From contig NC_088645.1 of NCBI RefSeq assembly GCF_964019385.1, positions 11,742,692-11,806,691 of the forward strand: 64,000 bases of DNA, written 5' to 3'. The position numbers and the translations under genes are program-made. Source of the DNA: Sycon ciliatum. Taxonomy: Eukaryota; Porifera; Calcarea; Leucosolenida; Sycettidae. Each line of letters opens with the position of its first letter. Position 1 is the stretch's first letter. Of this stretch, positions 11,290-57,466 are shown piece by piece. The notes beneath the pieces are model-generated. The model did no database searches. It worked only from the letters and a program-made list of their open reading frames with translations, and was not told where the DNA came from.

Positions 11290-11290
11290 A

Positions 11291-23066: not shown

Positions 23067-26057
23067 TATAGATTGCCGTGATCACGAGCTCTTATGGATT
23101 TCCCTGGCAATGCACTCCGGAACAAAGACTGTTCTGGGTGCGCTCTACCGGCCTGGCTCTTGTGCAGAGACAGACACCAGCCTGATGGACTACCTAGACA
23201 ACACTTTGGATGATGTCCGCCGTCTTGGCAGCAATGTTATAATTGCAGGGGACTTCAACGTGCATAATTCAGCCTGGCTACAGAGTAGCAAGACTACCCG
23301 AGCCGGTGAATGCCTGGAGGAAGTCTGCGCAGCACATCATCTTGTCCAGCATGTCACCCAGCCAACCCGCGGCAACAATACTCTCGATCTTATCATCTCC
23401 GATTTCCCACACCCCGTACGCACCACAGCCTATGGACCACTTGGACGATCTGATCATGCCGTTATCATTGCCGAGTTTCTCCAACAGCATCCACGACGCG
23501 AAGATCCTGCTGTTCGACAGGTTTGGAAATACGCCCTTGCTGACTGGCACCGCCTGAGAGCCTACCTCCGCAACATAGACTGGCCCGCCAAGATCCATGG
23601 GTGTGCGGAGCAGTCCTGTCAGCGCGTAACTGATGTCATCATGCATGGAATGAAACAGTTCATACCATCCAAAGAGCTTGTGGTGCACCAATCCAACCCT
23701 GTATGGTGGACACCGGACTGTTCTAACGCCAATCATGCCAAGGAGCGGGCATGGAAGCTGTGGCGACGCAATCCCCGCAACGATAACCACAAGGTCCAGT
23801 ACATCACAGCTGTTAACCACGAAGTGGAAGCGTGTCATGCAGCGCGATTAGCACATCAACGTAGAATTCGCAACAAGCTTACTGCAGGTTTCCTCCGGGA
23901 CAAAGAGTGGTGGTCAACCATCAAGAGCGCAGCAGGCAAGGGACGTTGCTCTGACATCCCCCTGCTGACCAACCCTGCAGGACAAGAGTTCCACTCTTCT
24001 CGTGAGAAAGCCGAGTGCTTTGCAGCGCATTTTGCGAACAAGTGTAGCCTTGGCAATAACGACCTCTGTGCTGCTGACCTGCCTGACCTGCAACGACCTG
24101 CCTATGCCACGCTAAAGCACATTCACTTCCGCGCAGCAACGGTCAAACGGCACTTGGCGAACTTGGCTGTATCAAAAGCAACTGGACCGGATGGCATCTC
24201 TGCTCGTGTGCTCAAGATGTGCTCATCTGAACTTGCAGACCCACTGGCAAAGCTCTTCGCCCTCTGCTTCTTAGCCGGTGTGCAACCTAGGGCATGGAAA
24301 CTTGCCCATGTAGTCCCAGTCCACAAACGGTCCTCCAGATCTTTGGCATCGAACTACCGACCAATATCACTGCTAACGATCATGTCGAAAGTCATGGAGG
24401 GCATTGTAAACACGCAACTGGTTAACTACCTAGAGAAGCATGAGGTGTTGCCAAACAGCCAGTTTGGATTCCGACGTGGTAGAGGAACCGCAGAACTCTT
24501 AACGGCTCTCCAACATGAATGGGTCCACACCATAAGTACTGGCGGTTGTGTCCAGGTCCTCGCCGTGGATATTGCCGGTGCATTTGACCGGGTATCGCAC
24601 ACAGGAGTGCTGTACAAAGCAAAGCAGGCCGGCGTCGACGGACGCCTGCTTGTATGGCTACAGGACTACCTCACCAACCGAAACATCCGCGTTGTGGTTG
24701 GAGGCCAGACGTCAGATGCTCAACCCATCCAGGCTGGTGTCCCCCAAGGCAGCATCCTAGGACCCAGCCTCTTCCTTCTATACACCTGTGACATTGAACA
24801 ATGTTTAACTCCAGGGACGCAGCTGAGCAGCTTTGCAGACGACACTACACTCTACAGCTTAGTACAGCCAACTGACGATCTCCAACAGTCCACCGCCTCC
24901 CTCCAAGGGTCCCTCAACAGTCTTGAGGAGTGGGGCCGCAAGTGGCGTATCTGTTTTGAGCCAGCCAAGACACAGCGCATGACTCTACATCGCAAGCACG
25001 TTCCCCCCTGCACTCCACCAGTCACCTTTGGAGGTGAAGCACTCCAGGAGACAGATACCCTGAAGCTGCTGGGAGTCATGCTCGACCCTACTCTCTCCTA
25101 CAGAGCGCACACTCGCAGTGTTGCACTGCGCGCCTCCCAAAGGCTGGGTTTCCTACGAAAGGCAGCACCCATCCTGGACGACCATGGTCGAGTGACGGTC
25201 TACAAGGGATTCGTGCGACCCCTACTTGAATATGCCCCACTGGCCTGGTCGAGCGCAGCCGCAACTAACATGGCCCAGCTGGACAAGGTTCAGCAACGTG
25301 CCCTGCATTTCCTGGGACCTGGAACCATCCTCCAAAGTCTTCAGCTTCGTCGGATGGTGGCAGCCCTGTCATACTTGTTCAAGCTGCACTACATTCCAGG
25401 GCCTCCCCAGGTAAAGGCCATGCTGCCACCAACCAAGCCCCCTGCCGTAGCTAGCATGTGCACACGGCAAAAACGTCAGACGCACCATGCCTTTCAGCTG
25501 AAGTGGACACCCCCTCGCACAGCCCCTGACTACCTCCTGCGATCCTTCCCCTTCTTCGCCATCACACCCTGGAACAACCTGCCTGCGGACCTCCTGCTTC
25601 ACGAGCCTAATTCAAGACGCCTCCAAACCTTCAAGGTCAACGTATGTAAGGATCTAATCCGAAAGAGATGGCTGTGGTCCACACAGTACCTGTGACGATG
25701 ATATTGAGATTTGAGACCCATTTAGTATTTACCTCTCTACTACTTGCTTGTTATGATTATTGTTCTCTCTCTTCATTTTCCCTTCTGGTTTAGTCATAAC
25801 ACGTATTTATATTATTTGGTGCAATACTAGCGCCCCTTTCTCGCACCAAATTATTATTTTTGCTACCTGACCATGCAACCCCCCCTTTTTTTCGATGCCA
25901 GGTTGCAACGCTAACGCCGAGACCCCTGGTCGGTCGAGTTGCTCCCTGTACATGGGCACGTCGTCCCTACATCCCCTGTGTCCTGTCTTGTGTTTGTCTC
26001 CACATGTCTCTTTGTAGGGCTGTGTTCCCAATAAATAAAAAATAAAAAATAAAAAAA
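23067..26057 (+). mobile_element. 5'-truncated LINE at the duplication junction
   Basis: It starts in the endonuclease coding region directly after truncated SINE sequence (GCACGCGGGG) and ends in an AATAAAAAATAAAAAA tail touching the first base of copy two (26058). No target duplication is visible, because the two flanks are not one former site. Confidence 0.85.
23068..25695 (+). CDS. LINE ORF: partial APE endonuclease and full reverse transcriptase
   Basis: Open from the truncation point (ELLWISLAMHSG, first Met 23110) to TGA 25693-25695, 861 codons from that Met. Endonuclease motifs GALYRPG, IAGDFNVHNSAW, LDLIISDF and RSDHAVII are present, but the first part of the domain, with its metal-binding Asn and Glu, is missing. 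RT motifs are KATGPDGISARVLK, YRPISLLTIMSKVME, SQFGFRRGRG, VLAVDIAGAFDRVSH (A), AGVPQGSILGPSLF (B), SSFADDTTLYS (C, near residue 577) and KLLGVMLD. The end has VYKGFVRPLLEYAPLAWS and WNNLPADLL. The RT is intact but the element is 5'-truncated and probably dead. A decayed relative is at 47036. Confidence 0.9.
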   Translation: MDCRDHELLWISLAMHSGTKTVLGALYRPGSCAETDTSLMDYLDNTLDDVRRLGSNVIIAGDFNVHNSAWLQSSKTTRAGECLEEVCAAHHLVQHVTQPTRGNNTLDLIISDFPHPVRTTAYGPLGRSDHAVIIAEFLQQHPRREDPAVRQVWKYALADWHRLRAYLRNIDWPAKIHGCAEQSCQRVTDVIMHGMKQFIPSKELVVHQSNPVWWTPDCSNANHAKERAWKLWRRNPRNDNHKVQYITAVNHEVEACHAARLAHQRRIRNKLTAGFLRDKEWWSTIKSAAGKGRCSDIPLLTNPAGQEFHSSREKAECFAAHFANKCSLGNNDLCAADLPDLQRPAYATLKHIHFRAATVKRHLANLAVSKATGPDGISARVLKMCSSELADPLAKLFALCFLAGVQPRAWKLAHVVPVHKRSSRSLASNYRPISLLTIMSKVMEGIVNTQLVNYLEKHEVLPNSQFGFRRGRGTAELLTALQHEWVHTISTGGCVQVLAVDIAGAFDRVSHTGVLYKAKQAGVDGRLLVWLQDYLTNRNIRVVVGGQTSDAQPIQAGVPQGSILGPSLFLLYTCDIEQCLTPGTQLSSFADDTTLYSLVQPTDDLQQSTASLQGSLNSLEEWGRKWRICFEPAKTQRMTLHRKHVPPCTPPVTFGGEALQETDTLKLLGVMLDPTLSYRAHTRSVALRASQRLGFLRKAAPILDDHGRVTVYKGFVRPLLEYAPLAWSSAAATNMAQLDKVQQRALHFLGPGTILQSLQLRRMVAALSYLFKLHYIPGPPQVKAMLPPTKPPAVASMCTRQKRQTHHAFQLKWTPPRTAPDYLLRSFPFFAITPWNNLPADLLLHEPNSRRLQTFKVNVCKDLIRKRWLWSTQYL

Positions 26058-26286
26058 TACTCCTGATTACACACAACTGTCTGCAAGTACGCAATCACAC
26101 CCTCATCCTTACCAAAGTCTCGGTCTCCATAACAACGACACTCGCGTAGGTGACTCCTCTGCTGAGAGCGAATCCAACAATTCCATGAGCATGTCCAGGT
26201 CACCCTGTGTGACCGACAACACAAAGCAGGAACATGAAGATGTGGCCATGGTGATACAAAACCATCCCTTCTCTACCTCGGTCTGA
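26058..26286 (+). pseudogene. Duplicated last 229 bases of member A
   Basis: It carries the second YTQLSASTQ...YQSL unit of the A tail up to TGA, with few changes. Nothing upstream belongs to a gene, so it is a non-functional by-product of the duplication. Confidence 0.85.
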
Positions 26287-26799
26287 CCATCGCTTTGTAT
26301 GTTGCTAATCCCTTCCTCCCCCTTTTGTGTGCGCGTTTTTTGTTGTTTTTCCTCTTTTTCCGTGGTTGGTCTCACCCTCTCCTCAATTCAATTGGCCATC
26401 TTGGCACGCTACGAGGTGCATAAATACATAAATAAATCACTGAATTTAATCATAGTGGAGAGATCCTCAACTTTGAGGAGCAGTTGGAGCGAGCAGGCGC
26501 TAAAGCCCGCTGCAAGGTTGCCACGTTCCTCAATGGGCGTCGTGACGCAGTGTACACATTGAGAGCACCTACATGTACATTGTCATGTACATGTACAATG
26601 TAGACTGTAGGACTATGGCAGCACAATCGTCATGCCTTGCCAATCTGTCAAACTCCATGCCATGTAATAATACATGACTGTGTAGACTCAGCAAGTCGCA
26701 CGTGCCTAGGGCGTGCCTTTGACTTTACTACTGTACTGGCAAGTATAATCATTGTAGGTGTGTTTTCACAGAACATCACCCGTACCGTACGGCCGTAGA

Positions 26800-26835
26800 C
26801 ATGTGCATTGTGCATGTACATACACAATGCACATG
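26800..26835. repeat. Perfect hairpin, copy in the C upstream region
   Basis: The same 13-bp stem and 10-base loop as at 5306-5341. Confidence 0.7.
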
Positions 26836-27094
26836 CACAACGCGTCATGTACATGACTGTATGTTCTCTCTAAAATAATGCTTTATTTACCCCTTGCTTC
26901 TGATCCATCGTCGCATTTTGATATTTTCATACACAGTAGGTGCAAACCCAGTGGTATTCTTCACGCTAGACACGCTTTTTTTTTAAGATTCCCACAGCTT
27001 ACCCAGCGAATTAAGTAAGGCGTCGACGGCTCTAGGGAGTATTGTGTCGCCACGGACAACAGGTACACGGGTGATAAGAGAAAAAAGACATTCT

Positions 27095-27807
27095 ACGGTA
27101 CTCCCATTACCAACAAGAAATAGAATAAACGAGGCGCTCCAGAAGATCACTACAACAAAGAAGGAACGAAGCGTCGAACACTACGGAGTACTGTGCTATG
27201 ACTGACAACTAGTACACGGGTGATAAAAGAAAAAAAAGTCCCCTGCTTTTTAGCACACAGCACGCGACATTTGTCACCTGTCATTGACATCACTGTCCTG
27301 TTTGGCACATAGCATTGGCTAGGATCCTGATGATTGACGTCTTCACATCCCGTAATCAACAATCATATACCGGTAGCTAACTCGCCACTCAGGTGTGCAA
27401 GGCATAGGCATAGTGGTGGCCTGCGGAAGCGAAGGCTAGTTTGTGTGTTTCTGAACATTCAAGCGATGCCAACGCGAATCCCGCGAATTATTAAAACTCT
27501 GTTACTCGCTAGCGTGCCGAACAAAAACCAGGTCACACTTGGCACTGCAGGGACACTCCTCACTTGCACGCGTCTGCACTAGTAGTCAGCACATCCAGTA
27601 ACATTATTCCCTCCGGTCTGCAGTTGGAGGTTGATTCAATGAATTTATCTGGAACTGAACGTTTCCTGGAAAGGAGAAGGTCACGAAGGTGCTGGTATTT
27701 GTCAGAGGAGTTTCTCCAGTTAGGGCGTATGTTGTATCGTGTCTCGTAGTGGGAGTCTTGAACGATAGGAGCGTCTGCCGGCGCGCTGACACCATCTCGT
27801 TGAGAAA
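27095..27807 (+). promoter_or_regulatory. Conserved upstream region of gene C
   Basis: Homologous to 5596-6203 and 56013-56642. A 111-bp insert (27384-27494) flanked by AACTC on both sides (27379-27383 and 27495-27499) is unique to C; it has no ORF and looks like a small transposed piece. Confidence 0.5.
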
Positions 27808-27892
27808 ATGAAGTGCGGAGTGCCGCCCATCGTTGTGCTGATCATACATGTAGGTGTGTTCGGAGTGATACTACGGGACACTGGAGCAACAG
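27808..27892 (+). CDS. Gene C exon 1: signal peptide
   Basis: ATG 27808; identical protein to exon 1 of B, ending ACAG|GTAAGA in phase 1. Intron 1 is only about 1.15 kb because C lacks the LINE. It contains the GT array (27905-27972), the LINE 3' fragment with poly-G (28300-28570) and the tRNA-like remnant. Confidence 0.85.
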
Positions 27893-27903
27893 GTAAGATG
27901 ATT

Positions 27904-27943
<40 letters not shown>

Positions 27944-28299
27944 TGCATGTGTGTGTGTGTGTGTGTGTTTGTGCGTGAGTGAGTATGTGTGTGTATGTGG
28001 TGCCAGCTAGTTCGGTTGGTGGGTACACTTATGCCTGATTGTGTTGGGTCTGTTGCCAACGGTCTCGGCTACTTGAAGGTGTAATGTTGTACCTGCCACC
28101 TTCGTTGTTGGTTCCAGGGTTCATATACTTTCTATTTGAAGTATACATACCTGTTAACCATGGACTGCTTCTGGCTAGATTAACTCTAGTGTAATCAATG
28201 GTGCTAGTGAAGCTAATATCAGATCCACTCTGATTTAGTCACACACACTAGTAGCACGTATTTATTACCTTCACTGGGGGCAGGGGTAACTGCAGTTGG

Positions 28300-28570
28300 A
28301 TTCTAGGACGGATGCCACAGACGGAGTCATCCGCGGCCAAGTCAATAATTCCCTCTCTTCACACATTAGGCAAACTCAAGCTGGATACAAATCTATTTCA
28401 TTCCTTGGTGCTGACCGCTTTAATGCGCTTCCCGGGGGGGGGGGGGGGGGGGGGGGGGGCCTTCGCACTAATCACATCCCCAATTTATTTCGCCAGGAAC
28501 TTAACAAATTCATTCATCTGTTGGGAATGCCCAAGTAAAATAATAAAATACAATACAATACAAAATCACC
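28300..28570 (+). mobile_element. LINE 3'-end fragment with poly-G (copy in C)
   Basis: Duplicate of 6690-6960. The G run is slightly longer than in B. Confidence 0.6.
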
Positions 28571-29042
28571 ACTGAGCAAAGGGAATTCAACGCACTACAT
28601 TTTCTACCCGAATATGCAAGTGGGTGCGTGGTTCAAATAGTTAGAGCACTGTTCTGAACATGATGTTGTGAGATACAATGCCAGTTCGATACGGGTCAAG
28701 TTGGAGTGTTTACCTGACGCATTGGGGTGTGTTTATGTGTGGTTTTATTTGTACATGTACATGTGTATGTGTGTACATGCATGTGTTGTGTGTGTGTGTG
28801 TGTTGGTGCGTGTGCCTGTATGTGTATGTGTGTGTGTTTGTGGGTGCGTGTGTGTGTACATGCGCGCATGTGAACGTGTGTACGTATGACGGTGGGAACA
28901 TTTGTGGATGTGTCCGTGTACATGCATGGTACATGTGTGTGTATGCATATGCGTGTGCATGTGTGTGTATCCATATGCGTGTGCATGTGTGTTTGTGTGC
29001 TTTGGGCGGGAATGTTGGAACGTGTTTCTCACCACCTTGCAG

Positions 29043-29555
29043 CCTCGACAGCATGCATTTTGTCTGGAAGTGCAGGAAATCTTACCATTGATAATCACGC
29101 TAGGCTGACAAGTGCGCCGCCCAGCAGTGCACCACTTCTCCAACCGCGGACAATTGTCCCTTTCCCGAACATATCCTTCTACAGCAGCTGTTCACTTGTC
29201 CAGATTGATATTATTGCAGACGGGCTTGGGTCGCTCTGCTACCCGAACTTGGCCATATTGGAGGAATTCCCTGGAAAAAAGTATCAGACTGCCTCTAAAC
29301 TCATTCCACCTAGTACACATATGGGGGGCATTGCAACATGGACTGCGGTGCCCCTTGATGGCTACATATCTGATAACAGCAGTGTGACGAAAGCTTATAT
29401 ACTTGGGATCGCCGTTCAAGCCAACTGCCAGTTGAATACAAAAGTCATCTCATCGGAATTCGCTTTCGTCTTGCTGCAAGGCACAGCACCCCGTGTGTTA
29501 CAGAAGTTTTCCTTTGGTGCGGCCCTAGAACCTCGTGTCACATTGACCATCCGTG
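29043..29555 (+). CDS. Gene C exon 2: extracellular domain
   Basis: Acceptor CACCTTGCAG at 29042, donor GTAAGT at 29556, 513 bases, phase 1 at both ends. It differs from exon 2 of B almost only near residue 23 (APPSSAPLLQ versus APGAGPLRQ, one codon longer). The four cysteines and the FPNISFYSSC and GKKYQTASKLI blocks are intact. The domain family is unrecognised. Confidence 0.85.
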
Positions 29556-29598
29556 GTAAGTGCCAATCATTCATGCAGGTATTATAATTATACTCATT

Positions 29599-29648
29599 GC
29601 TGTAGATAGCAAGCTGTTTTTGGCCATAAAAAGCCTCATCAGTACAGC
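29599..29648 (-). ncRNA. Degenerate hammerhead ribozyme in intron 2 of C
   Basis: The same changes as the copy in B (GAAA to AAAAA; weakened helices II and III). It lies 43 bases after the exon 2 donor and is predicted to be inactive. Confidence 0.75.
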
Positions 29649-30558
29649 AACGAGCTTTAATTAAGCAAGCCGAGCTACCAGCCATGGTGCAAAGGAAGCA
29701 CCACAGACATTACGATAGCTCGTCGCTCTAGCGCCAGAGTGCTCTAACTAAAGCTTAAAAGTGGCGTTGTTTCCGTTTCTCGTAATTCGAGAGATTTTTA
29801 TAACAATAATCGGCTAGGTGTTCGAGAAAGACTTTTGTAGGTCTCCTTGCGCTTTCGAGCTGTAGTCATTTTTCTTGTTGATCCCTTCCATTTGGGCTTA
29901 ATTTGACTTCTCGTTAGCTTGGATACAAATTTTTTTGGCCATATCCAACAAGCCTGGTGACAAATCAATATCGTTATTATAGTTTATCCCTTTCCATTGA
30001 GTCAATAGGCAACGTCGGTCGGCAGCGGCAGTAGATCGGATTCATTGCCGCTCGCCTTATCAAAATACACAGAAAAATACCACTACGCTCTGCTTCGTTC
30101 TTTCGCCCCTGCTCAACATTATCATTGCATTTGTTCGCGTGCGTGGTCGCTCCTTGGCCTTGCATGTGTAAGTGGCAGTGCGGCGTGGTCGGCTGCAACG
30201 GCGGTCGATAGCGTGTACGGTTTCATTGCCGCTCGCTCCGTAACACTGATACCAGCATTTTTACTATTCATCATTCTTTGCAAATTCTTCACCACGGTCA
30301 CTTCAAATCAACTGTATCTTTAGTTCGGCACACTGCCACGAGATTGGTGCCTTCGTCACACTGCTCCTTTCTCGTTGTAATTGGCTTCCGGCTTCAACTA
30401 GGCTTGCAAACACACGTAGAGTTTGACCGTAAAAATGTTCTTTTTTATCAGCTGTTTTGGCCATTCCAATGGCTCTGCAGTGCGTTTGGCAGGATCGTTA
30501 CTTCTCCTTTGTTAGGGCTGTGCGCATCGCTGTTGGTAGCTGCATTTGGTAATCCACA

Positions 30559-33500
30559 ATGGTTTGTTGTGGCTGTGCGAAAGGGGGCACATGCGTTCGC
30601 TGCGAGTGTGCCTCAAGCCCCAATCCGTGCTTTGACTGTTACCCCAGTCGGGAAAGGCACTGTGCCAACCGCATTCCCGGATCCATAAAAGCAAGGTTTC
30701 AAACTAATGTGCCGGACCCGAGAGTCAGGCAAACCACTAGTACCACTATATGTAGTGTCGATACAAATGGTAACACTAACTCTTGTACGGCATGTATTCG
30801 TGGCTGCTTGCCGCCGGTTGAGCCTGGTGCCGGTGATGGGATCTCAAACGTTACGCGGGCTGATGGCCGTGTTGGGGCTTCCGTCACCGTGTTGTCTGGG
30901 TCTTCCGCTCCGCAGCCGCTCGGTGGACACTCGGGGATGGCTTCTTCCACTATTGCCGTACCTATCCCCAGTGTGAGAGGTGCGCGCCCAGATGATGAAG
31001 CACCATGTTTACGGACGGGTTCTGTATCAGTTTCCCCTAGGTTGTGGACTGATTATTGCGCGCCACATGAGCTACTTGGCAATGCCTGCGCCTTGACTAG
31101 CGTTGAATGTCCCTGCCAGCCTCTGCGTGTTGACTTACCGCATCGTAAAGACCCTGCTCAGGGGTCGGCCAATGCACCCGTCTCGACACCCCCTGTTGAG
31201 GAACATCCTCCAGGTGTAGCACCCGATAATGTCGTCCGCGCTTCTGTATTGGTTTCCCCCATGTTGTTGACCGATTCTTCCGAACCACACAAAAAATGAC
31301 AGTGGATGTGCTTTGCCAGATGTTGAATGTTTCTGGCAGCCTCTGCGTGTTGACTTACCACATAGAGAAGGCCCTGCCAAGGGGTCGGGTAATGCACCTG
31401 TCTCAATGCCCCTGGCGGAGCAACACCCTCCAGTCATACCATTATTATTCTTTATTTCCACGATGGCCCATGGCCAATAAGGAAGATAATATGATTCAAA
31501 TCAGTCCAGAATCATATAAAATCAGTCTAGCAAGTAAGGAAACCAACACATTGCAGGGGGATGGGGTCACGATGGGGTACAGTGTGAGCTACTACAGGAG
31601 CATATGGATGATAGAATGAGGCTAGACGCCATTGATTTAAACGCATGCTTGCTATTTGTTTCACGCAGGTCGGGGGGTAGTTGGTTGAAATTGTGAAGGG
31701 ATAGGTTGATGGGTGAGTTGGTGTGTCGGTATGTGTGTGATGTTCTCAATGTGTATGTTCTCATGTGTCGTAGTGCATATGGCTGCTCTGTGGTTGGTCG
31801 TGCAAGGTGAGGCTGTTGCAGGTGAAGGGGAGCGCGGATGTACTTGATGTTGTGGGCAAGAGTAACCTGTCGTAAGAGTTGCCGGGAGACTAATGTGGGG
31901 AGTTGGAGATGATGAAGAAGTGAGCTGTGATGGACTGGTGCAAAAAGGGGGATCCGCAGGCAGATACAGGCTGCTCGTCGCTGAACGCGTTCTAATTGGT
32001 CCTTCTGTGTGCGGGTGGTGTTGGATAACACGAGACTGCCGTACTCTATAACCGGGCGAATGTAGCCATCCGATACTGTCATCCGTACCTATAACAAGGT
32101 TATTAGTTGGCAACAAAACCTTTTTGATCTGCCTAATGGGGCCTCCAGCAAGGCTTTTGTTCGAGTGCTCACTACGGAACTACGAAAATTCAATATATCT
32201 CAGGGAGTGGATGTTGATTCCTTGTATAGGTTTTTCGTGTTACCCTCTTTATTACTACAACGCGTAGGGCGTGCCATGGCAGCTAAGGATTGTGGCAAAC
32301 ACTTGAAGCGCCGTCTTGGGTTATGGAAGGATGGAAATCTTATCGAGCTCCTCGATGAGGGCGACACGATACAGCGGGGCTTAATGGGTAGGACTGGTCA
32401 TGGGGGTCGTTTTGATGATGGTCAACCACGCCGGTTTGGTAAACTTTATGGCCCAGGGCAGAGTTACGACGGCCGCGCGTATGCTCAGCTCTTGCGGGAA
32501 GGAGCAGTCTGTTACGCCGGTTCTTGCTATGGATGATGTGGTGCCCGTGGGTGGCACTGATTGCGTAGTTGGTGATATCCTCCGTCAGAAACACCCTACG
32601 CCTGCTGTGCCTAATCCGGATGTGTTGCTTCCCGGACCACCAGGCCATGTGAATGAAATTTACTATGCCGGTATTAATATTGACTTGATAAAGAAAACAG
32701 CCTTGGCGGTCCATGGATCGGCGGGCCCGTCTGGTTTGGACTCCGGCGCTTGGCGCAGAATGTGGACGTGCTACAAGGGTGCATCGACCGACGTATGTGA
32801 TGCCATAGCCATTTTTACGCGTATGATATGTACAGTCCAATTGCTGGTAGGATCTTTGGCACCCTATGTTGCTTGCCGTCTCATTGCGCTTAGACCTATC
32901 GGGGTGGGCGAGGTATTTCGCCGAATTTGTTCAAAGGCAGCCTTGTCTGTAATGAGGTCCAATATTATGGAGTCGTGCGGCGTCGAACAGGCCTGTACCG
33001 GGATCCCAACAGGTCTTGAGTCGATGCACCAGGCAATGGAAATTGCTTTTCAGCATGGCGAAACGGAGGCTTTGTTGTTGGTGGATGCCCAGAATGCATT
33101 CAATAGCCTCAATCGATGCGCCGCCCTTCACAACATTGCCAGGGTGTGTCCTCCACTATCTCAAATACCTACAAATACTTACCAGTCTCCAGCAACGCTG
33201 CATGTATCTGGAGGTGGAAGCATCCTGTCTCGTGAGGGAACTACACAGGGTGATCCTTTATCAATGGCAATATACGCTGTTGCATTGACACCTTTGGTCA
33301 AATCGTTGCGTGCTTCTGCGGGTAGAGTCTGCCAAGGATGGTATGCGGACGACTCTGCCACAGCGGGGAAGTTTGGTCCGCTCCGCGTGTGGTATGATAA
33401 TTTGAAACCATGGTGAAGATTATGGATACATTATTAATGAAAGTAAAACTCAGTTGCTTGTGAAGCCTGGGCTAGAGGTGCCTGGGCTAGAGGTGCCTGG

Positions 33501-34292
33501 GCTTGAGGTGGCTGCCAACGAGCACTTTGGAGACACGGCTATTGTTGTGAAGACGGATGGTGTCCGTTACCTTGGTGCTGGGCTGGGCACTTCCGCTTTC
33601 TGTCGTGATTTTGCAATCCAGCGTGCGGGTGAGTGGATACAAGAGATGAATGTTCTAAAAGAATTTGCGGCTGTTGAGCCTCATGCGGCTTATGCTGCGA
33701 TGACACATGGTTTAAGGCACAGATGGACATACTTGTTTCGGGCTATGGATTTGGGTGAGGCGTACTTGCTCCTGTCGAGACTTGCCTCTCTCAGGTTCTT
33801 TTGCCAGTTGTTGTGGGGCAACCCGCATTGTCTGGCGGTGATCGGAGGGTGTTGAGACTCCCTATTCGGCATGGCGGGATGGCTATCCTGGATTTGGTTG
33901 CTATGTCTGCGCACCAACGGCGTCAGTCTCGCCACATTTCGGAGCCTCTGGTGCTGGGTATTGTGGGTGGCTACATTGGGACATTGCATGTGCCCTCTCG
34001 ATCTGTCGCCTCTCCGAGTCACAGGAGTGTAGTGTCCGGGAGTGACCACGTTGCCTCTACTCCTGTGGCAGTGATAGTGGACGCCGTGCGGGAGCGTAAG
34101 GCCCAGACCCATGCGCAGCAAAGGAAGGAAGCTGTGGCTGCGACGAGCACGGCTGCTGAAATGTTGTGTGATTGGGACAGGAGGCGTATTCTTGAACTAT
34201 CAGAGAAGGGTGCCTCGTCCTGACTGGCTGTATTACCTATCAGGAGGCATGGTTTTAGTTTGTCAGGAAGAGACTTCCAGGACGCTGTCGCT
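30559..34292 (+). pseudogene. RT element in intron 2 of C (decayed second copy)
   Basis: ATG 30559 begins an intact Cys cluster (MVCCGCAKGGTCVRCEC, CFDCYPSRERHC). An extra A near 31295 breaks the frame, and a LINE fragment (31443-32065) splits the linker. The RT frame 32400-33416 keeps LLLVDAQNAFNSLNR, SREGTTQGDPLSMA and an intact YADD (GWYADDSA), but ends early at PW-stop. The thumb continues at 33454 and in other frames. Sequence from the zinc knuckle onward is deleted: at 34292 it jumps to the right arm of the foldback element. The copy complements B, where YADD is altered but the C-terminus survives. Neither can be active. Confidence 0.8.
31443..32065 (-). mobile_element. 5'-truncated LINE fragment inside the RT element of C
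   Basis: The insertion is absent from B at 13891. CCAT flanks both sides (31439-31442, 32066-32069). The minus strand encodes the end of an RT ORF (YIRPVIEYGSLVLSN, QLERVQRRAA, FNQLPPDLRE) followed by a tail ending in AAT repeats. Confidence 0.8.
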
Positions 34293-34296
34293 TTGC

Positions 34297-34415
34297 GATA
34301 TCGAGTCGAAGGTTCGATGGACTTCTCGTGTGCTCTGGATGGCAGTCGTGAGTCAGTCATGTGTCAAGTGAAGTCAGCGGAATAGCCCGAGCTCCAGTGT
34401 GGGGAGCAAACCCTT
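34297..34415 (+). repeat. Half arm of the ribozyme foldback element
   Basis: It matches 20685-20798 up to GGAGCAAACCCTTTCTG. The left arm, centre and both ribozymes were lost in the deletion that also removed the end of the RT element. Confidence 0.85.
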
Positions 34416-34983
34416 TCTGTTTTTGTTTTGTTATTGTTTTTTTTCCTTTTGGAATGGGTTTATTGAGTTTATTGATCCAGTTTATTTTTAATTATAAAAA
34501 AATTGATTTGAAGTTTTTAGTTTGGGTTTGAAATTCTTTACACATGCATTTTTTTCTGATTTCTTCTCCAGTGTATGATTTATTGCATTTTAAACCATTG
34601 TGTTAAAATTTAATTTGCCCGTAAAAGAGGCCTACAGAAAGAAGAAGAAAAAACTAAAGTAGCGGGCAATGCGTAGGAGTACACCATTTACCGATATTTC
34701 TGTAACCACTATTTTAAAGGAAAATCCTTATACAAGTACACGTATCATAGCGATAAAATTAATAGTTTTAGTCTGCGTTTACACGACAACGAAGTGCGAC
34801 CAAAAAAGAAACGAAATCGTTGTGTTTACTATATGTATCATCGTTTATACAGTAATTATACTGTACTACAAGGCACGAAAACGCACGAAAACGCACCCGA
34901 AACGGAATGAAACAGAATTCAATATTTTCCTTTTTACAATAATTAAAAAAGTTGCTTGCTCATCTTTTTCATTCTTTCTGCAG

Positions 34984-35984
34984 CATTGGATGCGTGCCAT
35001 CATGCTGCATGTGATACCTGCCAGACCCTCTATCGAAGCTGTCCTGCATTAGCGGATGCAAGTGGAACAAGTCAGCTTCAATACTATTGCAGTAGTGCAT
35101 CTAACTACACCTGCTCAACATCAACTGTCCTGCAGCCTACAAACCGTACAACACAGCCGACAACCTCTCCTCAACAGAACACCTCTGTAGCAGTTACAGC
35201 AACGAGTGTCGACGTGGCTACATCTTACACACAAAAATATAACTCGCCCGGTGAGACATCCTCCCCACATCCCAGCCCATTGACAGGAACATCCAAGCCT
35301 GATTCATCCGCTCCAGTATCACAAATTATTACAACAAGTGCAGATGTGGCCATCATTTATGTCTCGGGGCCATCAACTAGCGTCATCTTGGCCATTGGTG
35401 TGCCCTTGATAATCCTCGCACTGTGCTTGCTACTAGTACTACTGTACCGAAGGAAGAAGCGCAACTCTCTGGCAGAAGCTGATCAGTCACGGCTGCGACA
35501 TCTAGAGTCCGGAAACGGGCTGATGCTCCCGCGTCCCTCGGGTAGCTTTGCAGCCCAACCTCAGACAAGTAGTGGAGCAGCACAAAATCCGTCCGAGACT
35601 GTATGCTATGATATTGCGTTGGAACCAGTGAAAGCAAGTAATTCCATGCGGATTTCCAGGTCTTCGGCCATTGCTGACGGTGAGAACCAGCGCCCTGACG
35701 ATGCGGACGTTCCAATGGCTTCATTGAACAGTGAACATCACCTCGCCCCGCTATACTCTGAGCCGGACGCACCTGCAGATGCCAATGCCAGAGCGCAGGG
35801 ATGTCACTACACCCTACCATCTACAGGTACACAATCACGTGCCAACCGCTATGAAAGCCTGGGTCCCCATAGCAACGCTCTCCCTGGTGGTACATCTCCC
35901 ACTGAGAATGGAGCAACCAATGCTGGGAACACGCCCGTATATTTCTCCTTTACTCATGACAATACTCGGCATCAGGTCTACTAG
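34984..35984 (+). CDS. Gene C exon 3: Cys module, stalk, membrane helix, shortened tail
   Basis: Acceptor TTCTTTCTGCAG at 34983, phase 1; stop TAG at 35982-35984. It has the same six-cysteine module, helix (VILAIGVPLIILALCLLLVLL) and YRRKKRN as B, but one stalk block instead of two. In the tail YYDI has become CYDI (one Tyr lost), and a G-to-T change turns the Glu codon of YENV into TAG, cutting the last 15 residues and destroying that possible SH2 site. The remaining motifs are YSEP, YTLP and YESL. The assembled protein has about 531 residues. The rest is intact, so it may be expressed with altered signalling. Confidence 0.8.
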
Positions 35985-36267
35985 AACGTCTCCACGGAGC
36001 TGTCAGGCGCCGTCAAATTGTGAACACAACTACGATTCCATATCTGCTGATCTGTAAGAAGACCTTGAGTCTGTGGGGACTGCCCTATTAAAATATGAAT
36101 AGATAATAATCTTTGTTCATTTTTCAGTTGCAAGTTTATTGTTAGTACACGCATTCGTTATTGCTCTCGCTTTCATAGTTAAAATTCACACTTGTAAATT
36201 TCACTGCTGTTGTTCTTAGCGTTATTTCTCTCACTTAGATTTTCTATAATAGTTCAATTTTGTTTTC

Positions 36268-37547
36268 AATAATAATAATCTTCACTAGTTTGAGGGAAAG
36301 AGACAAACGGGAAAAGTCTGAAGAAAAAATTGACTGTCACCGCCAGGACTCGAACCAGGGACCCTCGCTTGTAGCTGGCGATGCTCTAACCACTGAGCTA
36401 TGGTGTAGTCGTCATCCCAGCAGAGACTGTTCAACATTTTCTTCAGACTTCGTAACTCACACTTCCTGTGACTCCACACAGGCGGGTGGGACGCAGCCCT
36501 CACTGTACCCACACACTTCACGTACACTCTAGCACGCGGGGAGCCCCAAGTCATAAAATCTTCACTAGTTTGAGGGAAAGAGACAAACGGGAAAAGTCTG
36601 AAGAAAAAATTGACTGTCACCACCAGGACTCGAACCAGGGACCCATAATAATAATAATAATAGTAATAATATTAACTGGTTTGAGGGAAAGAGACAAACG
36701 GGAAAAGTCTGAAGAAAAAACTGACTGTCACCACGAGGACTCGAACCAGGGACCTTCGCTTGTAGCCTGCCTTATGGAATTCTTCCATTTGGTCACCACC
36801 CAACCAGAACTTTTTGAAGCAGCGGGATACTGCCCCACGCGTAGTCGCCGCCGCCAACTCGCATTCACTCTGCCACGGGTTGGGAAACACGCCGGGAGGT
36901 CATTTCTCTTCCGCACCGCTACTGTCTGGAATGCCTTGCCCGCAGACCTGAGAGCCACAGCCTCGCAGTCCCTGTTTCACAGTCACATTTGCACGCACTT
37001 CTCTGACACCAAACACAATGCCACTCCTCACTGACATGCCTCTGTCCTCCTTCTTTGTGCGTTGCGCTTATTCTTATTAATTTTTGTGTTTCTGTTTCGG
37101 TACATTTCGTATTTCAAGGCATATCCCGAGGCTATAGGTATCATTGATTAAAGGACCATTCTGGAACATTCAGCATAATTGTATTTCTCTTGCTAGGCTC
37201 TTCATTACGAATTATTAGCCCTCCACTGTCTGCTATCTCAACCCTACAGTCTCCCATTATAATGGAACTCCCTTCGATTTAGACTACGTCTTTGGGAAAT
37301 CCTCAAATATATAATAATAATAATAATAAATAGCCAGCGATGCTCTAACCACTGAGCTATGGTGTAGTCGTCATCCCAGCAGAGGCCCTTCAACATTTTC
37401 TTCAGACTTCGTAACTCACACTTCCTGTGAATCCACACAGGCGGGTGGGACGCAGCCCTCACTGTAACCCACACACTTCACGTACAAAGTAGCACGCGGG
37501 GAGCGCCAAGTCATAAAATATTTTAACTGGTTTGATGAAAAGAGCCA

Positions 37548-37550: not shown

Positions 37551-37579
<29 letters not shown>

Positions 37580-37580
<1 letters not shown>

Positions 37581-38890
37581 GAAGAAGAAGAAGAAGAAGA
37601 AGAAGAAGAAGAAGAAGAAGAAGAAGAAGAAGAAGAAGAAGAAGAAGAAGAAGAAGAAGAAGAAGAAGAAGAAGAAGAAGAAGAAGAAGAAGAAGAAGAA
37701 GAAGAAGAAGAAGAAGAAGAAAGAAGAAGAAGAAGAAGAAGAAGAAGAAGAAGAAGAAGAAGAAGAAGAAGAAGAAGAAGAAGAAGAAGAAGAAGAAGAA
37801 GAAGAAGAAGAAGAAGAAGAAGAAGAGAAGAAGAAGAAGAAGAAGAAGAAGAAGAAGAAGAAGAAGAAGAAGAAGAAGAAGAAGAAGAAGAAGAAGAAGA
37901 AGAAGAAGAAGAAGAAGAAGAAGAAGAAGAAGAAGAAGAAGAAGAAGAAGAAGAAGAAGAAGAAGAAGAAGAAGAAGAAGAAGAAGAAGAAGAAGAAGAA
38001 GAAGAAGAAGAAGAAGAAGAAGAAGAAGAAGAAGAAGAAGAAGAAGAAGAGAAGAAGAAGAAGAAGAAGAAGAAGAAGAAGAAGAAGAAGAAGAAGAAGA
38101 AGAAGAAGAAGAAGAAGAAGAAGAAGAAGAGAAGAAGAAGAAGAAGAAGAAGAAGAAGAAGAAGAAGAAGAAGAAGAAGAAGAAGAAGAAGAAGAAGAAG
38201 AAGAAGAAGAAGAAGAAGAAGAAGAAGAAGAAGAAGAAGAGAAGAAGAAGAAGAAGAAGAAGAAGAAGAAGAAGAAGAAGAAGAAGAAGAAGAAGAAGAA
38301 GAAGAAGAAGAAGAAGAAGAAGAAGAAGAAGAAGAAGAAGAAGAAGAAGAAGAAGAAGAAGAAGAAGAAGAAAAGAAGAAGAAGAAGAAAAGAAGAAGAA
38401 GAAGAAGAAGAAGAAGAAGAAGAAAGAAGAAGAAGAAGAAGAAGAAGAAGAAGAAGAAGAAGAAGAAGAAGAAGAAGAAGAAGAAGAAGAAGAAGAAGAA
38501 GAAAAGAAGAAAGAAGAAGAAGAAGAAGAAGAAGAAAGAAGAAGAAGAAGAAGAAGAAGAGAAGAAGAAGAAGAAGAAGAAGAAGAAGAAGAAGAAGAAG
38601 AAGAAGAAGAAGAAGAAGAAGAAGAAGAAGAAGAAGAAGAAGAAGAAGAAGAAGAAGAAGAAGAAGAAGAAGAAGAAGAAGAAGAAGAAGAAGAAGAAGA
38701 AGAAGAAGAAGAAGAAGAAGAAGAAGAAGAAGAAGAAGAAGAAGAAGAAGAAGAAGAAGAAGAAGAAGAAGAAGAAGAAGAAGAAGAAGAAGAAGAAGAA
38801 GAAGAAGAAGAAGAAGAAGAAGAAGAAGAAGAAGAAGAAGAAGAAGAAGAAGAAGAAGAAGAAGAAGAAGAAGAAGAAGAAGAAGAAGAA
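37580..38890 (+). repeat. Very long GAA microsatellite
   Basis: About 1.3 kb of GAA (roughly 435 units) with about ten single-base interruptions (for example near 37731, 37826, 38049 and 38372). It is preceded by AAT repeats and followed directly by the foldback element. The long Phe/Leu/Ser reading frames through it are artefacts. Confidence 0.98.
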
Positions 38891-39926: not shown

Positions 39927-40371
39927 ATGAGCCCACGGGCGCCGGGCCTATATCCGGATATAAGCCCACCTCCATTAGTTTTACAAGCACAACGGTGTCA
40001 TCTGTATTCGTTTGAGCAAAGAGTTAATTTGAAACTATACGTTTTGGTCTATCGCTGCTTGTCATCAATTGCTAGCCCCTTCCTTCAGTCACTGTTTCTC
40101 CAGCGTTCAGTTGGCCCGCACACAAATGCTCGTACTCGTGGCCAGGATACAGCTGCCTTAGTATTACCTAATGTACATATTGGGTATGGACTGCGCTCAA
40201 TTTCTTTTCTGGCGGCAGGTCGGTGGAACACTCTTCCTCCAAACTGTCGTCAGGCACAATCTGCTGGTACTTTTGTTCACCTCACAAAGATTCACCTAGG
40301 ATTCCCTGTAACAAGGCCATGCCTGTTGGGACTCCCCTAGCCAAATAATAGATACTACTACTACTACTACT
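39927..40371 (+). mobile_element. LINE C-terminal fragment with ACT-repeat tail
   Basis: The frame contains QRCHLYSFEQRVNLKLY, RGQDTAALVLPN and FLAAGRWNTLPPNCR, typical of the end of LINE ORFs. It stops at 40340 and has a TACTACTAC tail that abuts the ribozyme array. Confidence 0.7.
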
Positions 40372-40605
40372 GGTTGATAAATATGGTGGTAAAGACACAC
40401 CTGGCAATATGGCGGTAAATACACGCCTGCCCACACATGCTCTCTAGGCTGCAAAGTTCTGGCACAGAGCTCTCCTTCTCACCACCACCACCATCAGTTC
40501 GCGCCTGGCGCCTGGTCGATGCATGGCTGGCGGTATCCGGCATAGCAGGCTGGTACATCAAGTAGCGCATGGCACATAGATGATGACACAGCAACGACAT
40601 AGCTC

Positions 40606-40649
40606 GATTGCGACGTACGTTTCGTCCCCGCTGGACTCATCAGGCAATC
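40606..40649 (-). ncRNA. Hammerhead ribozyme (inverted unit)
   Basis: Identical in sequence to the plus-strand copies but on the minus strand. Confidence 0.88.
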
Positions 40650-40992
40650 TTCTTCTTGGATGTGTTCATACGGAGCTTGACTCGGGAGAATGAAGTCGAA
40701 AACACCACTGCAGCTGTACTTATGGTTGATAAATAATTATGGGGGTAAAAACACACCTGGCAATATGGCGGTAAACACACGCCTGCCCACACACGCTCTC
40801 TAGGCTGCAAAGTTCTGGCACAGAGCTTCAGAACTTTGCAGCCTAGAGAGCGTGTGTGGGCAGGCGTGTGTTTACCGCCATATTGCCAGGTGTGTCTTTA
40901 CCACCATATTTATCAACCATAAGTACAGCTGCAGTGGTGTTTTCGACTTCATTCTCCCGAGTCAAGCTCCGTATGAACACATCCAAGTAGAA

Positions 40993-41036
40993 GATTGCCT
41001 GATGAGTCCAGCGGGGACGAAACGTACGTCGCAATC
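40993..41036 (+). ncRNA. Hammerhead ribozyme, array unit 1
   Basis: Helix I GATTGC (40993-40998) pairs with GCAATC (41031-41036). Core CTGATGA; helix II GTCC-AGCGG-GGAC; core GAAA; helix III is the self-complementary CGTACG closed by A-T; cleavage after GTC at 41030. With no loop, helix III favours a dimeric fold, as known for short-helix-III hammerheads in tandem repeats. All conserved core bases are present. Confidence 0.9.
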
Positions 41037-41344
41037 GAGCTATGTCGTTGCTGTGTGATCATCTATGTGCCATGCGCTATTTAATGTACCAGCCTGCTAT
41101 GCCGGATACCGCCAGCCATGCATCGACCAGGCGCTAGGCGCGAACTGATGGTGGTGGTGGTGAGAAGGAGAGCTCTGTGCCAGAACTTTGCAGCCTAGAG
41201 AGCGTGTGTGGGCAGGCGTGTGTTTACCGCCATATTGTTAGGTGTGTCTTCACCACCATATTTATCAACCATAAGTAAAGCTGCAGTGGTGTCTTCGACT
41301 TCATTCTCCCGAGTCAAGCTCCGTATGAACACATCCAAGAAGAA

Positions 41345-41388
41345 GATTGCCTGATGAGTCCAGCGGGGACGAAACGTACGTCGCAATC
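41345..41388 (+). ncRNA. Hammerhead ribozyme, array unit 2
   Basis: Identical to unit 1; 352 bases downstream. Confidence 0.9.
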
Positions 41389-41696
41389 GAGCTATGTCGT
41401 TGCTGTGTCATCATCTATGTGCCATGCGCTACTTGACGTACCAGCCTGCTATGCCGGATACCGCCAGCCATGCATCGACCAGGCGCCAGGCGCGAACTGA
41501 TGGTGGTGGTGGTGAGAAGGAGAGCTCTGTGCCAGAACTTTGCAGCCTAGAGAGCGTGTGTGGGCAGGCGTGTGTTTACCGCCATATTGCCAGGTGTGTC
41601 TTCACCACCATATTTATCAACCATAAGTACAGCTGCAGTGGTGTCTTCGACTTCATTCTCCCGAGTCAAGCTCCGTATGAACACATCCAAGAAGAA

Positions 41697-41740
41697 GATT
41701 GCCTGATGAGTCCAGCGGGGACGAAACGTACGTCGCAATC
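41697..41740 (+). ncRNA. Hammerhead ribozyme, array unit 3
   Basis: Identical to unit 1. Confidence 0.9.
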
Positions 41741-42048
41741 GAGCTATGTCGTTGCTGTGTCATCATCTATGTGCCATGCGCTATTTAATGTACCAGCCTG
41801 ATATGCCGGATACCGCCAGCCATGCATCGACCAGGCGCTAGGCGCGAACTGATGGTGGTGGTGGTGAGAAGGAGAGCTCTGTGCCAGAACTTTGCAGCCT
41901 AGAGAGCGTGTGTGGGCAGGCGTGTGTTTACCGCCATATTGCCAGGTGTGTCTTCACCACCATATTTATCAACCATAAGTACAGCTGCAGTGGTGTCTTC
42001 GACTTCATTCTCCCGAGTCAAGCTCCGTATGAACACATCCAAGAAGAA

Positions 42049-42092
42049 GATTGCCTGATGAGTCCAGCGGGGACGAAACGTACGTCGCAATC
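42049..42092 (+). ncRNA. Hammerhead ribozyme, array unit 4
   Basis: Identical to unit 1. Confidence 0.9.
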
Positions 42093-42400
42093 GAGCTATG
42101 TCGTTGCTGTGTCATCATCTATGTGCCATGCGCTACTTGACGTATCAGCCTGCTATGCCGGATACCGCCAGCCATGCATCGACCAGGCGCCAGGCGCGAA
42201 CTGATGGTGGTGGTGGTGAGAAGGAGAGCTCTGTGCCAGAACTTTGCAGCCTAGAGAGCGTGTGTGGGCAGGCGTGTGTTTACCGCCATATTGCCAGGTG
42301 TGTCTTCACCACCATATTTATCAACCATAAGTACAGCTGCAGTGGTGTCTTCGACTTCATTCTCCCGAGTCAAGCTCCGTATGAACACATCCAAGAAGAA

Positions 42401-42444
42401 GATTGCCTGATGAGTCCAGCGGGGACGAAACGTACGTCGCAATC
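42401..42444 (+). ncRNA. Hammerhead ribozyme, array unit 5
   Basis: Identical to unit 1. The partial sixth unit ends before its ribozyme. Confidence 0.9.
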
Positions 42445-42734
42445 GAGCTATGTCGTTGCTGTGTCATCATCTATGTGCCATGCGCTACTTGATGTACCAG
42501 CCTGCTATGCCGGATACCGCCAGCCATGCATCGACCAGGCGCCAGGCGTGAACTGATGGTGGTGGTGGTGAGAAGGAGAGCTCTGTGCCAGAACTTTGCA
42601 GCCTAGAGAGCGTGTGTGGGCAGGCGTGTGTTTACCGCCATATTGCCAGGTGTGTCTTTACTACCATATTTATCAACCATAAGTACAGCTGCATTGGTGT
42701 CTTCGACTTCTTTACTTCTACTACTACTCCGTTT

Positions 42735-55566: not shown

Positions 55567-56012
55567 CATGAATATCGCGGATTACAGAATGGCACAGACC
55601 ACGCAGTGGTTGCCAGCTATTCTGGATTCGCCTTGTTCTCTAAAATTTCCGATTTCCGGTAATAAATTCGCCTTTCTGTTTTGCTGCGTTTTGAGCAGGC
55701 TTTTTGGTTGTTTTTCTGCCGGATGATCTGACCTGGCTTGACTCGGCTGGCCTGCATGCGCCAGGTACACTCTGACTGGGCTGTGTTGAATGTCTAGAGC
55801 AGGCCCTGGGCAGGTGTATGTATCCGCTCTAATCCCTCTACCTCTAGCGTAGAACGTCAGCATATTATGGTTGTCTTCCTGGCTTGCTGGCCCTTGTTGA
55901 CACGTGGGCATGTTGACACACGGACACAGTGCATGCTGTCCATAATCGCGAGTCAAGTAATCACGCCAGTCACACTTCGTGCCAGCCATTCCAAAAAAGT
56001 ACATTGTACATT
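55567..56012. other. No gene seen
   Basis: GC-richer DNA with CTGACCTGGCTTGACTCGGC-type motifs similar to 50995-51085; otherwise featureless. Confidence 0.35.
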
Positions 56013-56642
56013 ATACAGTACTCCCATTACCAACGAGAAATAGAATATATGAGGCGCTCCAGACGATCGCTACAATAAGGAAGGAACGAAGTATCGAACA
56101 CTAGGGTAGTAGGGAGTAGTGTGTTGTGACTGACAACTAGTACACGGGTGACAAAAGAAAAAAAAGTCCCGTGCTTTTTAGCACACAGCACGCGACATTT
56201 GTCACCTGTCATTGAGATCACCAGATCACTGTCCTGTTTGGCACGTAGCATTGACTAGGAACATGATGATTGACGTCTTCACACAGTCCCGTAATCAACA
56301 ATCATTATGCCAGTAGCTAACTCTGTTACTCGCTAGCGTGCCGAACAAAAACCAGGTCACACTTGGCACTGCAGGGGCACTCCTGACTCGCAGCCATCTG
56401 TTCTAGTAAGTTAGCACTTAGACTAAGTTAGAGTAAAATTATTCCCTCCCGTCTGCAGTTGGAGGTTGATTCAATGAATTGATCTTGCACTGAACGTTTC
56501 CTGGAAAGGAGAAGGCCACGAAGGTACTGGTAGTTGTCAGAGGAGTTTCTCCAGTCAGGGCGTATGTTGTATCTTGTCTCGTAGTGGGAGTCTTGAACGA
56601 TAGGTGCGTCTGCCGGCGCGCTGACACCATCTCGTTGAGAAA
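56013..56642 (+). promoter_or_regulatory. Conserved upstream region of gene D
   Basis: Homologous to the region upstream of B and C, starting at the same ACTCCCATTACCAACGAGAA block. It is the most diverged of the three copies. Confidence 0.5.
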
Positions 56643-56727
56643 ATGAAGTGCGGAGTACCGCTGATCGTTGTGCTGATCATACATGTCGGTATGTTCGGAG
56701 TGATACCACGGCACACTGGAGCAACAG
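56643..56727 (+). CDS. Gene D exon 1: signal peptide
   Basis: ATG 56643 encodes MKCGVPLIVVLIIHVGMFG, then VIPRHTGAT, ending ACAG|GTGAGA in phase 1. It has five changes against B and C, all compatible with a signal peptide. Intron 1 is about 4.3 kb and full of repeats. Confidence 0.85.
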
Positions 56728-56945
56728 GTGAGATGATATTGGTGCGTGTGTGTCCGTGCGCGTGTGTGCGTGTGTGCGTGTGCATGTGCGTGTGTCGATC
56801 TGACCCCTCTACATACCAACATCACCACTGAGCAAAGGGAATTCAACGGACCACATTTTCTACCCGAGTATGCAAATGGGTGCGTGGTTCAAATAGTTAG
56901 AGCATTGGCCTTCTGAACATGATGCCGTGAGATACAATGCAGTTT

Positions 56946-57464
56946 CTTTCAAATATTTCTGCGAAGACTTTTTTCACTCCTAACTGACTCCCCTCAGAAG
57001 ATGACTTTGATTGGCGAGGCAGACAGCAAGGGAGAGGAGGTGAACAATGCTCTCACTGTGTCAAGCTCATTGAAACAGAAGGTCACTAATACCTAAAGTT
57101 ACTGGCCCTACTGTCATAATTGAATTTGGGCTATATTTATACATTGCCCACATATATACTGCATCACTAGTGATAGTGATATCCCGGTGAAAATTAGATA
57201 CGCCCACAGATAATACAGATGCACTGCTTATCGACACCTGACTGCTGGGATTTCATTGGTAACTTGATGTCCACATGATCACTGGTACACAATCCACAAA
57301 AAGCCAGCTGATTCGACCTTGTAAGCATAGCCCTGAGCCCCAACACAAAGTTTGGAGTGATGCCATGGGATAGATGTTCATAGAACAGCTTTCATGTCTG
57401 ATTGGTTCACAAGTCGAAATCACCTTTACTGCTAGAAATGCAAAGGAGGGAGTTTGGAAGCTCA
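56946..57464. other. Intron 1 of D, no feature seen
   Basis: Unique-looking DNA without supported motifs. Confidence 0.35.
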
Positions 57465-57466
57465 GG

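Follow-up and report, generated by a model that had tools for sequence, protein, structure and literature searches.

The window analysed here, a stretch of 64,000 nucleotides of the Sycon ciliatum genome (NC_088645.1, positions 11,742,692 to 11,806,691, forward strand), contains a tandem array of 352-bp units that carry hammerhead ribozymes and are inverted at the left end, raising the question of whether the array is a mobile retrozyme and how its inverted end was formed. A sequence-only reading had located it at 40373–42708 and regarded it as a candidate metazoan retrozyme. The array itself was recovered, with its bounds corrected to 40371 and about 42710, and Tandem Repeats Finder upheld the 352-bp periodicity (period 352, 5.3 copies, 97% matches). 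The entire two-armed retrozyme insertion (40371–42710), as delimited by repeat finding and BLAST, has ends blurred by a CTA microsatellite; the BLAST match reaches 40365 and 42713. No copy of the 352-bp unit was found by BLAST in the window outside the array.

The inversion at the left end was confirmed, but not its size of one unit: the left arm (40371–40827, minus strand) measures 457 bp, or about 1.3 inverted units, and has its outer end at a site here named S1, at about u241, where unit coordinates (u) start just after the predicted hammerhead cleavage site. The right arm (40829–42710, plus strand) comprises 5.3 units of 352 bp and has its outer end at a second site, S2, with a clean match to about u272 and a BLAST match to u275. 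One nucleotide separates the two arms. One whole unit, counted from the cleavage site (u1–u352), lies at 41031–41382 on the plus strand, and the unit has a GC content of 51.7%. Since 352 is not a multiple of 3, no reading frame recurs from unit to unit. The earlier claim of no coding potential has to be qualified by the stop-to-stop frames that span the array, the longest of 164 amino acids.

The six identical hammerheads that had been described were also verified: the six copies of the 44-nt motif have exactly the same sequence, five on the plus strand and one on the minus strand, and the covariance-model check that had been proposed returned six matches to Rfam Hammerhead_1 (RF00163), each with 35.4 bits (gathering score 34; E = 3.7e-5, entire window searched). 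The minus-strand type I hammerhead, an exact copy, is at 40606–40649. Those on the plus strand keep an exact 352-bp spacing and are found at 40993–41036, 41345–41388, 41697–41740, 42049–42092 and 42401–42444, with predicted cleavage after 41030, 41382, 41734, 42086 and 42438, respectively. By shared variants (u50, u53 and u105 versus u55), the units at 41031–42710 are ordered A B A B C, and in another locus, L026, variants recur five units apart in a resembling manner. The A B A B order could derive from a later two-unit duplication or from a mixed template; a dimer circle is not needed, since the later duplication explains it equally well.

Several other repeats and coding frames were observed in the window. 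Non-LTR reverse transcriptase (RVT_1) frames are present at 7471–11232 (+), 14471–15913 (+), 17201–18544 (−) and 23032–25692 (+), the first and last of which also contain endonuclease/exonuclease-phosphatase domains. A large direct duplication in many blocks with 90–98% identity relates about 4516–23066 to 26057–36542, with parts again near 56000–63345. Three similar long plus-strand frames (21132–22535, 34947–35984 and 62355–63596) have the look of single-pass membrane proteins with Thr/Ser-rich stretches; a Pfam search of the frames at 21132–22535 and 62355–63596 gave no family above the cut-off. An AAG microsatellite of 1.3 kb is located at 37579–38890, and a weak tRNA match at 36338–36405 on the minus strand (29.7 bits, cut-off 29) falls within a repeat about 110 bp long, several copies of which lie nearby and which is perhaps a tRNA-derived SINE.

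The genome-wide copy search (538 Mb in 313 contigs), also proposed by the sequence-only reading, detected at least 218 dispersed matches to the 352-bp unit, a lower bound because 40 of 1,232 candidate places were scored. The matches listed fall in 40 places, all of which were examined and which include three segmental copies, leaving 37 independent copies. The excluded copies are L015, a segmental copy of L053, and L057 and L058, which have the same right arm and right flank as L056. L058, whose left end differs (u239) and whose duplication is 9 bp long, is possibly the original copy among L056, L057 and L058; substituting it for L056 changes neither of the end-site counts given below (24/24 and 61/66). 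L060 was taken from its second match, as the first sits at the edge of the retrieved stretch.

When a two-armed copy was defined as a minus arm followed by a plus arm within 60 nt, 29 of the 37 independent copies were two-armed and eight were one-armed. All share the same layout when two-armed, with the minus arm on the left, the plus arm on the right and the RNA 3' ends outward. In 28 of the 29 the arms are −6 to +6 nt apart, and in the remaining one 35 nt. A plus arm with a minus piece 38 nt further on, the sole such case, was found in L020 and classed as a neighbouring insertion. Extra retrozyme pieces were observed less than 300 bp from a complete insertion at L020:2199-2299 and L059:1974-2199, with their own ends at S2, as clustered insertions. 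The inverted unit, previously described as an extra of a single locus, is instead the usual form of the element and is better read as an integration footprint.

The hammerhead core was intact in 90 of 97 full units from 40 loci, according to our own pattern match. Judged by divergence alone, the hammerhead (0.0062 per site) resembles the remainder of the unit (0.0063; rank 0.49 among circular windows), and a special conservation of it was rejected on this basis. Variants shared within a locus numbered 0 in the hammerhead, 2 in the predicted S1 hairpin, 6 in the predicted S2 hairpin and 20 elsewhere in the unit, against private variants of 30, 0, 3 and 50, counts that are too small to weigh, the 30 being inflated by short gaps in L050 and L032. 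A genome-wide Rfam search, with 74 of 76,236 candidates scored, gave 21 matches among those listed, four of them above the cut-off, and provides no hammerhead count, the window's own matches being outside the scored set. No match was obtained in phage records (distant blastn), nor in viral contigs or prokaryote genome contigs (exact 32-base pattern).

Direct repeats of at least 9 bp were found at the outer boundaries of 24 of 31 two-armed loci (a set that includes L015, L057 and L058 and counts L060 as one-armed), in comparison with 6 of 930 mismatched left-right pairs. Nineteen of the 24 duplications are 12–14 bp long, and at least four duplications, those of the window, L045, L033 and L039, are wholly or partly low-complexity and thus less informative. 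In the window the possible duplication CTACTACTACT, with its left copy at 40361–40371 and its right copy at 42718–42728, about 7 nt past the end of the clean match, is weak evidence, since the left copy lies within a microsatellite. The A+T content was 67% in twenty hand-listed duplications versus 55% in left flanks. The duplications fit a staggered cut leaving 3' overhangs: the minus arm would then start from the left-hand 3' end of the top strand and the plus arm from the right-hand 3' end of the bottom strand, the geometry that was observed. Expansion of a satellite without insertion is ruled out by the target duplications. With dispersed arrays, a type I hammerhead in each full unit, a 352-bp unit and target duplications, the assignment of the window array as a metazoan retrozyme is supported, its cleavage and circle being predictions.

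The outer ends of the copies are concentrated at two sites on the unit. Sixty-one of 66 outer ends fall within S1 (u229–250) or S2 (u255–290), whereas the width of these two intervals, whose limits were set once the ends had been seen, predicts 10.9; the two sites are about 38 nt apart. All 24 copies with both ends classed pair one S1 with one S2, and the orientation of the pairs is even, with S1 on the left in 12 and on the right in 12. The five ends outside both sites are at u104, u153, u197, u202 and u349. The u202 end, in L035, belongs to an interrupted arm: the unit resumes to the right and ends at u274, where the flanks show a duplication. L035 was left unclassed in the count of 24, and reading across the interruption would make it a 25th mixed pair. 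No difference in length was seen between arms ending at S1 and those ending at S2 (Wilcoxon p = 0.46).

RNA folding predicted a 7-bp hairpin at u229–247 (41259–41277 in the first unit, plus strand), the loop of which (u236–240) contains the S1 start site, and a second hairpin at u269–288 (41299–41318, plus strand), with its loop (u277–280) at the S2 start site. The S1 hairpin was present in the minimum-energy fold of the full circle and in the u150–250 fold, and absent from the u170–300, u190–290 and u225–300 sub-folds. The predicted stability of the circle was not above chance (−101.4 kcal/mol versus −110.2 on average in 30 mononucleotide shuffles). The putative stems are near-invariant among loci, except for a C/T variant at u269 in which pairing with G is kept, an invariance that neither proves nor disproves the predicted hairpins; the S2 hairpin stretch is more variable than the remainder of the unit (0.025 versus 0.006 per site).

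The inner ends, where the two arms meet, are scattered along the unit (Rayleigh p = 0.24, n = 58), and only two of the 58 are within 6 nt of the cleavage site, with 2.1 expected. Thirty-nine of 48 arms are longer than one unit, with a maximum of 4,914 bp. A linear monomer was rejected as the template, as the inner ends do not favour the cleavage site and most arms exceed one unit. Full units without a single difference were found in L045 (five units, both arms), L031 and L049 (two units each, in one arm). Units within a locus differ by 0.2–0.4% in L016 and L026 and by up to 2% in L050 and L062, those of the window differ mutually by about 1.6%, and the mean difference between loci is 1.9%.

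The arm nearest in sequence, or tied for nearest, was that of the same locus in 18 of 27 testable loci, in comparison with 3.4 expected, and nine of the 27 failed this test. A variant common to both arms and absent from all other two-armed loci was found in 11 of 29, including the window (u300). Differences between the arms amount to 19 of 352 sites in L049 and 9 of 220 sites in L035. As the two arms at a locus tend to have variants in common, a single template sequence appears to have often served both DNA ends, and an RNA circle is the simplest template able to do so, with a uniform linear multimer as the alternative.

A search for the GIY-YIG endonuclease domain in the same genome gave at least 13 matches, all above the cut-off (150 of 944 candidates scored), and twelve places were examined. 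Two of these, L070 and L071, are Penelope-like elements with reverse transcriptase and GIY-YIG in one ORF. The frame of L070 has 807 amino acids and a GIY-YIG match of 24.5 bits, with no RVT_1 match reported at E 0.001; that of L071 has 749 amino acids, a GIY-YIG match of 25.4 bits and an RVT_1 match of 26.9 bits (E 4.7e-6), below the Pfam cut-off of 29.6. Homologues of the resident Penelope ORF carry PF00078, PF01541 and PF26215. L071 consists of two divergent arms, and L070 of a long plus arm and a short minus arm. The right ends of both stop at ...CTTCGA, blurred by the duplication in L070, while the left ends extend 34–37 nt beyond that site, to ...GCTACTTCGTT. Both are flanked by 11-bp target duplications, AGTTGTCTTCC and CGATATATTTT. 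Other GIY-YIG loci terminate at the first of these end sites (L074) or at the second (L072).

Penelope-type RT/GIY-YIG ORFs are present in the same genome with the same scar as the retrozyme, the copies of which show the Penelope-type integration pattern of a divergent copy, a tail at one end and two start sites. This scar, drawn from two two-armed Penelope elements, is a strong link between retrozyme and Penelope. The sequence of the tails makes a link that is only suggestive. The tail of the L070/L071 family has its best match over the retrozyme circle in the retrozyme tail (AGCTGCAG..., u249–275), a match equalled by 51 of 3000 random Penelope windows. For a second Penelope family, the best match of the tail lies at another place on the circle, outside the retrozyme tail. 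The tail-versus-tail score was reached by 17 of 2000 shuffles, and over a 100-nt region by 431 of 2000; an unrelated site of L070 gives the retrozyme tail a higher score than the Penelope tail does.

A minimal hammerhead-like motif was detected in L070, L071 and seven of ten other GIY-YIG loci by pattern only, with a regular expression of our own built on what we take to be the core letters. Rfam reported nothing on L070 and L071 at E ≤ 1. The motif is also found in each unit of a 421-bp tandem non-coding array of 4.2 copies, L082:569-2340 (G000:C10:28065700-28068500), in which three motifs are intact by pattern. Its unit derives, by sequence, from the end repeat of the resident Penelope family, and its right end is at the Penelope S1 site. 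The array shares with the retrozyme the tandem non-coding unit, the motif per unit and the S1 end, and differs in its Penelope-derived sequence and, at the one locus read, in its single orientation; it perhaps links Penelope elements and retrozymes. A second retrozyme family with units of 226–228 bp and type I hammerheads was observed in L066 and L067, and also in L065, L068 and L033. Its copies in L066 and L067 are in a single orientation, those in L065, L066, L067 and L068 end near one site about 16 nt past the cleavage site, and two copies in L067 have duplications of about 10–11 bp by eye. The scar of this family seems to be one-sided, unlike that of the 352-bp family.

Taken together, the array is likely to be a non-autonomous retrozyme inserted by target-primed reverse transcription of a two-ended, Penelope-like type, with an RNA circle as the probable template. 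The retrozyme transcript would be cut by the type I hammerhead into 352-nt monomers and circularised, as expected from its family. A docking region resembling that of Penelope-like elements would provide the RNA with its two start sites, S1 and S2, which lie about 38 nt from each other. The enzyme, a Penelope protein with reverse transcriptase and GIY-YIG endonuclease, would make a staggered cut of about 11–14 bp with 3' overhangs, and one overhang would prime at S1 and the other at S2 on one template. Each polymerase would then copy a partial round or several rounds, and both cDNAs would be joined in the middle of the insertion, leaving a pair of divergent arrays whose RNA 3' ends face outward, flanked by target duplications. 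In this scheme we infer the circularity of the template, the enzyme and the simultaneous use of S1 and S2. The eight one-armed copies, the five outer ends outside both sites, the nine loci that failed the nearest-arm test, the ordinary stability of the circle, the variability of the S2 hairpin and the presence of APE-type LINEs in the genome count against it. The narrower proposal that the two ends of one staggered break prime simultaneously on one Penelope-docked RNA circle, as a two-ended rolling-circle reaction that would also produce the inverted copies of Penelope elements, is considered slightly more likely than not.

The strongest competitor, still rather unlikely, is the same two-ended mechanism with linear multimers, transcribed from an existing array, as the template. 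The donor arrays are themselves uniform, so that uniform copies do not require a circle, the circle itself is inferred, and the 1.6% difference and A B A B order of the window units are as expected from a mixed multimer or a later duplication. Against it are the identical units in both arms of L045 and within an arm of L031 and L049, set beside the 1.9% difference between loci, and the occurrence of published metazoan retrozymes mostly as monomeric circles and linear monomers, as described in PMC7229834. Ordinary twin priming by a LINE with an APE endonuclease, in which a 5' inversion arises when the second DNA end enters the RNA at an arbitrary place, is improbable. LINEs with an APE-type endonuclease and reverse transcriptase are present in the window (7471–11232 and 23032–25692), and LINEs likewise yield duplications of such length, yet chance invasion predicts one fixed and one scattered outer end, and all 24 classed pairs combine S1 with S2, so that the second start is not at a random place.

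Inverted arms with identical variants on both sides, as observed, would also be produced by snap-back self-priming, in which the cDNA folds back and copies itself and which was proposed for Penelope inverted copies in PMC3846280. It predicts, however, that the two arms of a copy meet at almost equal unit positions, and junctions within 20 nt were found in three of 29 copies, including the window, with 3.4 expected; it also leaves the different sites of the two outer ends unexplained, making this origin very improbable. That the inverted arms come from assembly error or later recombination is hardly credible: inverted repeats are a known assembly hazard, but the flanks differ on the two sides and are nevertheless bounded by matching duplications, and the two outer coordinates are identical at loci on many contigs. 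The reading preferred over these four is that of two-ended, Penelope-type priming.

Comparison with known systems places the element among the metazoan non-LTR retrozymes, defined by Cervera and de la Pena (2020; PMC7229834), who report linear and circular RNAs of about 170–400 nt. Like these, the Sycon copies are tandem, genome-dispersed units of a few hundred bp (about 150–450 bp in that account), with a type I hammerhead each, a weak helix III and target duplications longer than 4 bp. The Sycon units run head-to-tail, in no LTR-internal layout. Unlike the retrozymes of its main text, they form divergent two-armed insertions with fixed S1/S2 ends, a feature for which the supplementary figures may differ. 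They also depart from the GC content below 50% that it gives as a trend, here treated as descriptive rather than defining, and come from a calcareous sponge. The plant LTR retrozymes described in the same paper are likewise hammerhead-processed and non-autonomous, with a circular RNA intermediate that for Sycon is an expectation, but have type III hammerheads in LTRs, PBS and PPT, 4-bp duplications and Gypsy machinery, whereas the Sycon hammerhead is type I and the duplications are mostly 12–14 bp. In the literature search, no paper joined Sycon and hammerhead ribozyme, and none joined retrozyme and head-to-head, the latter with the proviso that supplementary figures may still show divergent arms.

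Penelope elements are named as strong candidate mobilisers of metazoan retrozymes in PMC7229834, and PMC8969392 states that retrozymes may depend on them. According to PMC7761336, the mobiliser is not identifiable from any motif. With Penelope-like elements, as described in PMC3846280 and PMC11167929, the retrozyme shares a head-to-head inverted copy, a tail of about 30–40 nt at one end, target duplications and two reverse-transcription start sites. One Penelope copy reported in the former carries an inverted pLTR along with a tail of 31 bp and a duplication of 9 bp. The latter shows in vitro, with the purified protein of an anole Penelope, cleavage and extension of the two strands and initiation at two internal sites of the RNA, which form the limits of the genomic tail; no difference in start site between the strands was seen there, whereas each end of the Sycon copies uses a different one. 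The resident L070 and L071 agree with the retrozyme in their divergent arms, ends 34–37 nt apart and 11-bp duplications, and differ in encoding RT and GIY-YIG and in their minimal hammerhead-like motif. The retrozyme has no ORF in its 352-bp unit, a canonical rather than minimal type I hammerhead and multi-unit arms. Lacking a long frame (at most 164 amino acids from stop to stop), it was not classed as a Penelope element and looks like a passenger.

The scar of the retrozyme therefore itself indicates the machinery, with two fixed end sites on opposite sides of the insertion, as in the two resident Penelope elements, and the paired sites also parallel those of the purified Penelope protein in vitro described in PMC11167929. 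The inverted copies of Penelope elements and their optional tail are thereby united in one testable idea, for which the retrozyme supplies the RNA sites to assay, and the shared scar points to an enzyme that may mobilise retrozymes in animal genomes.
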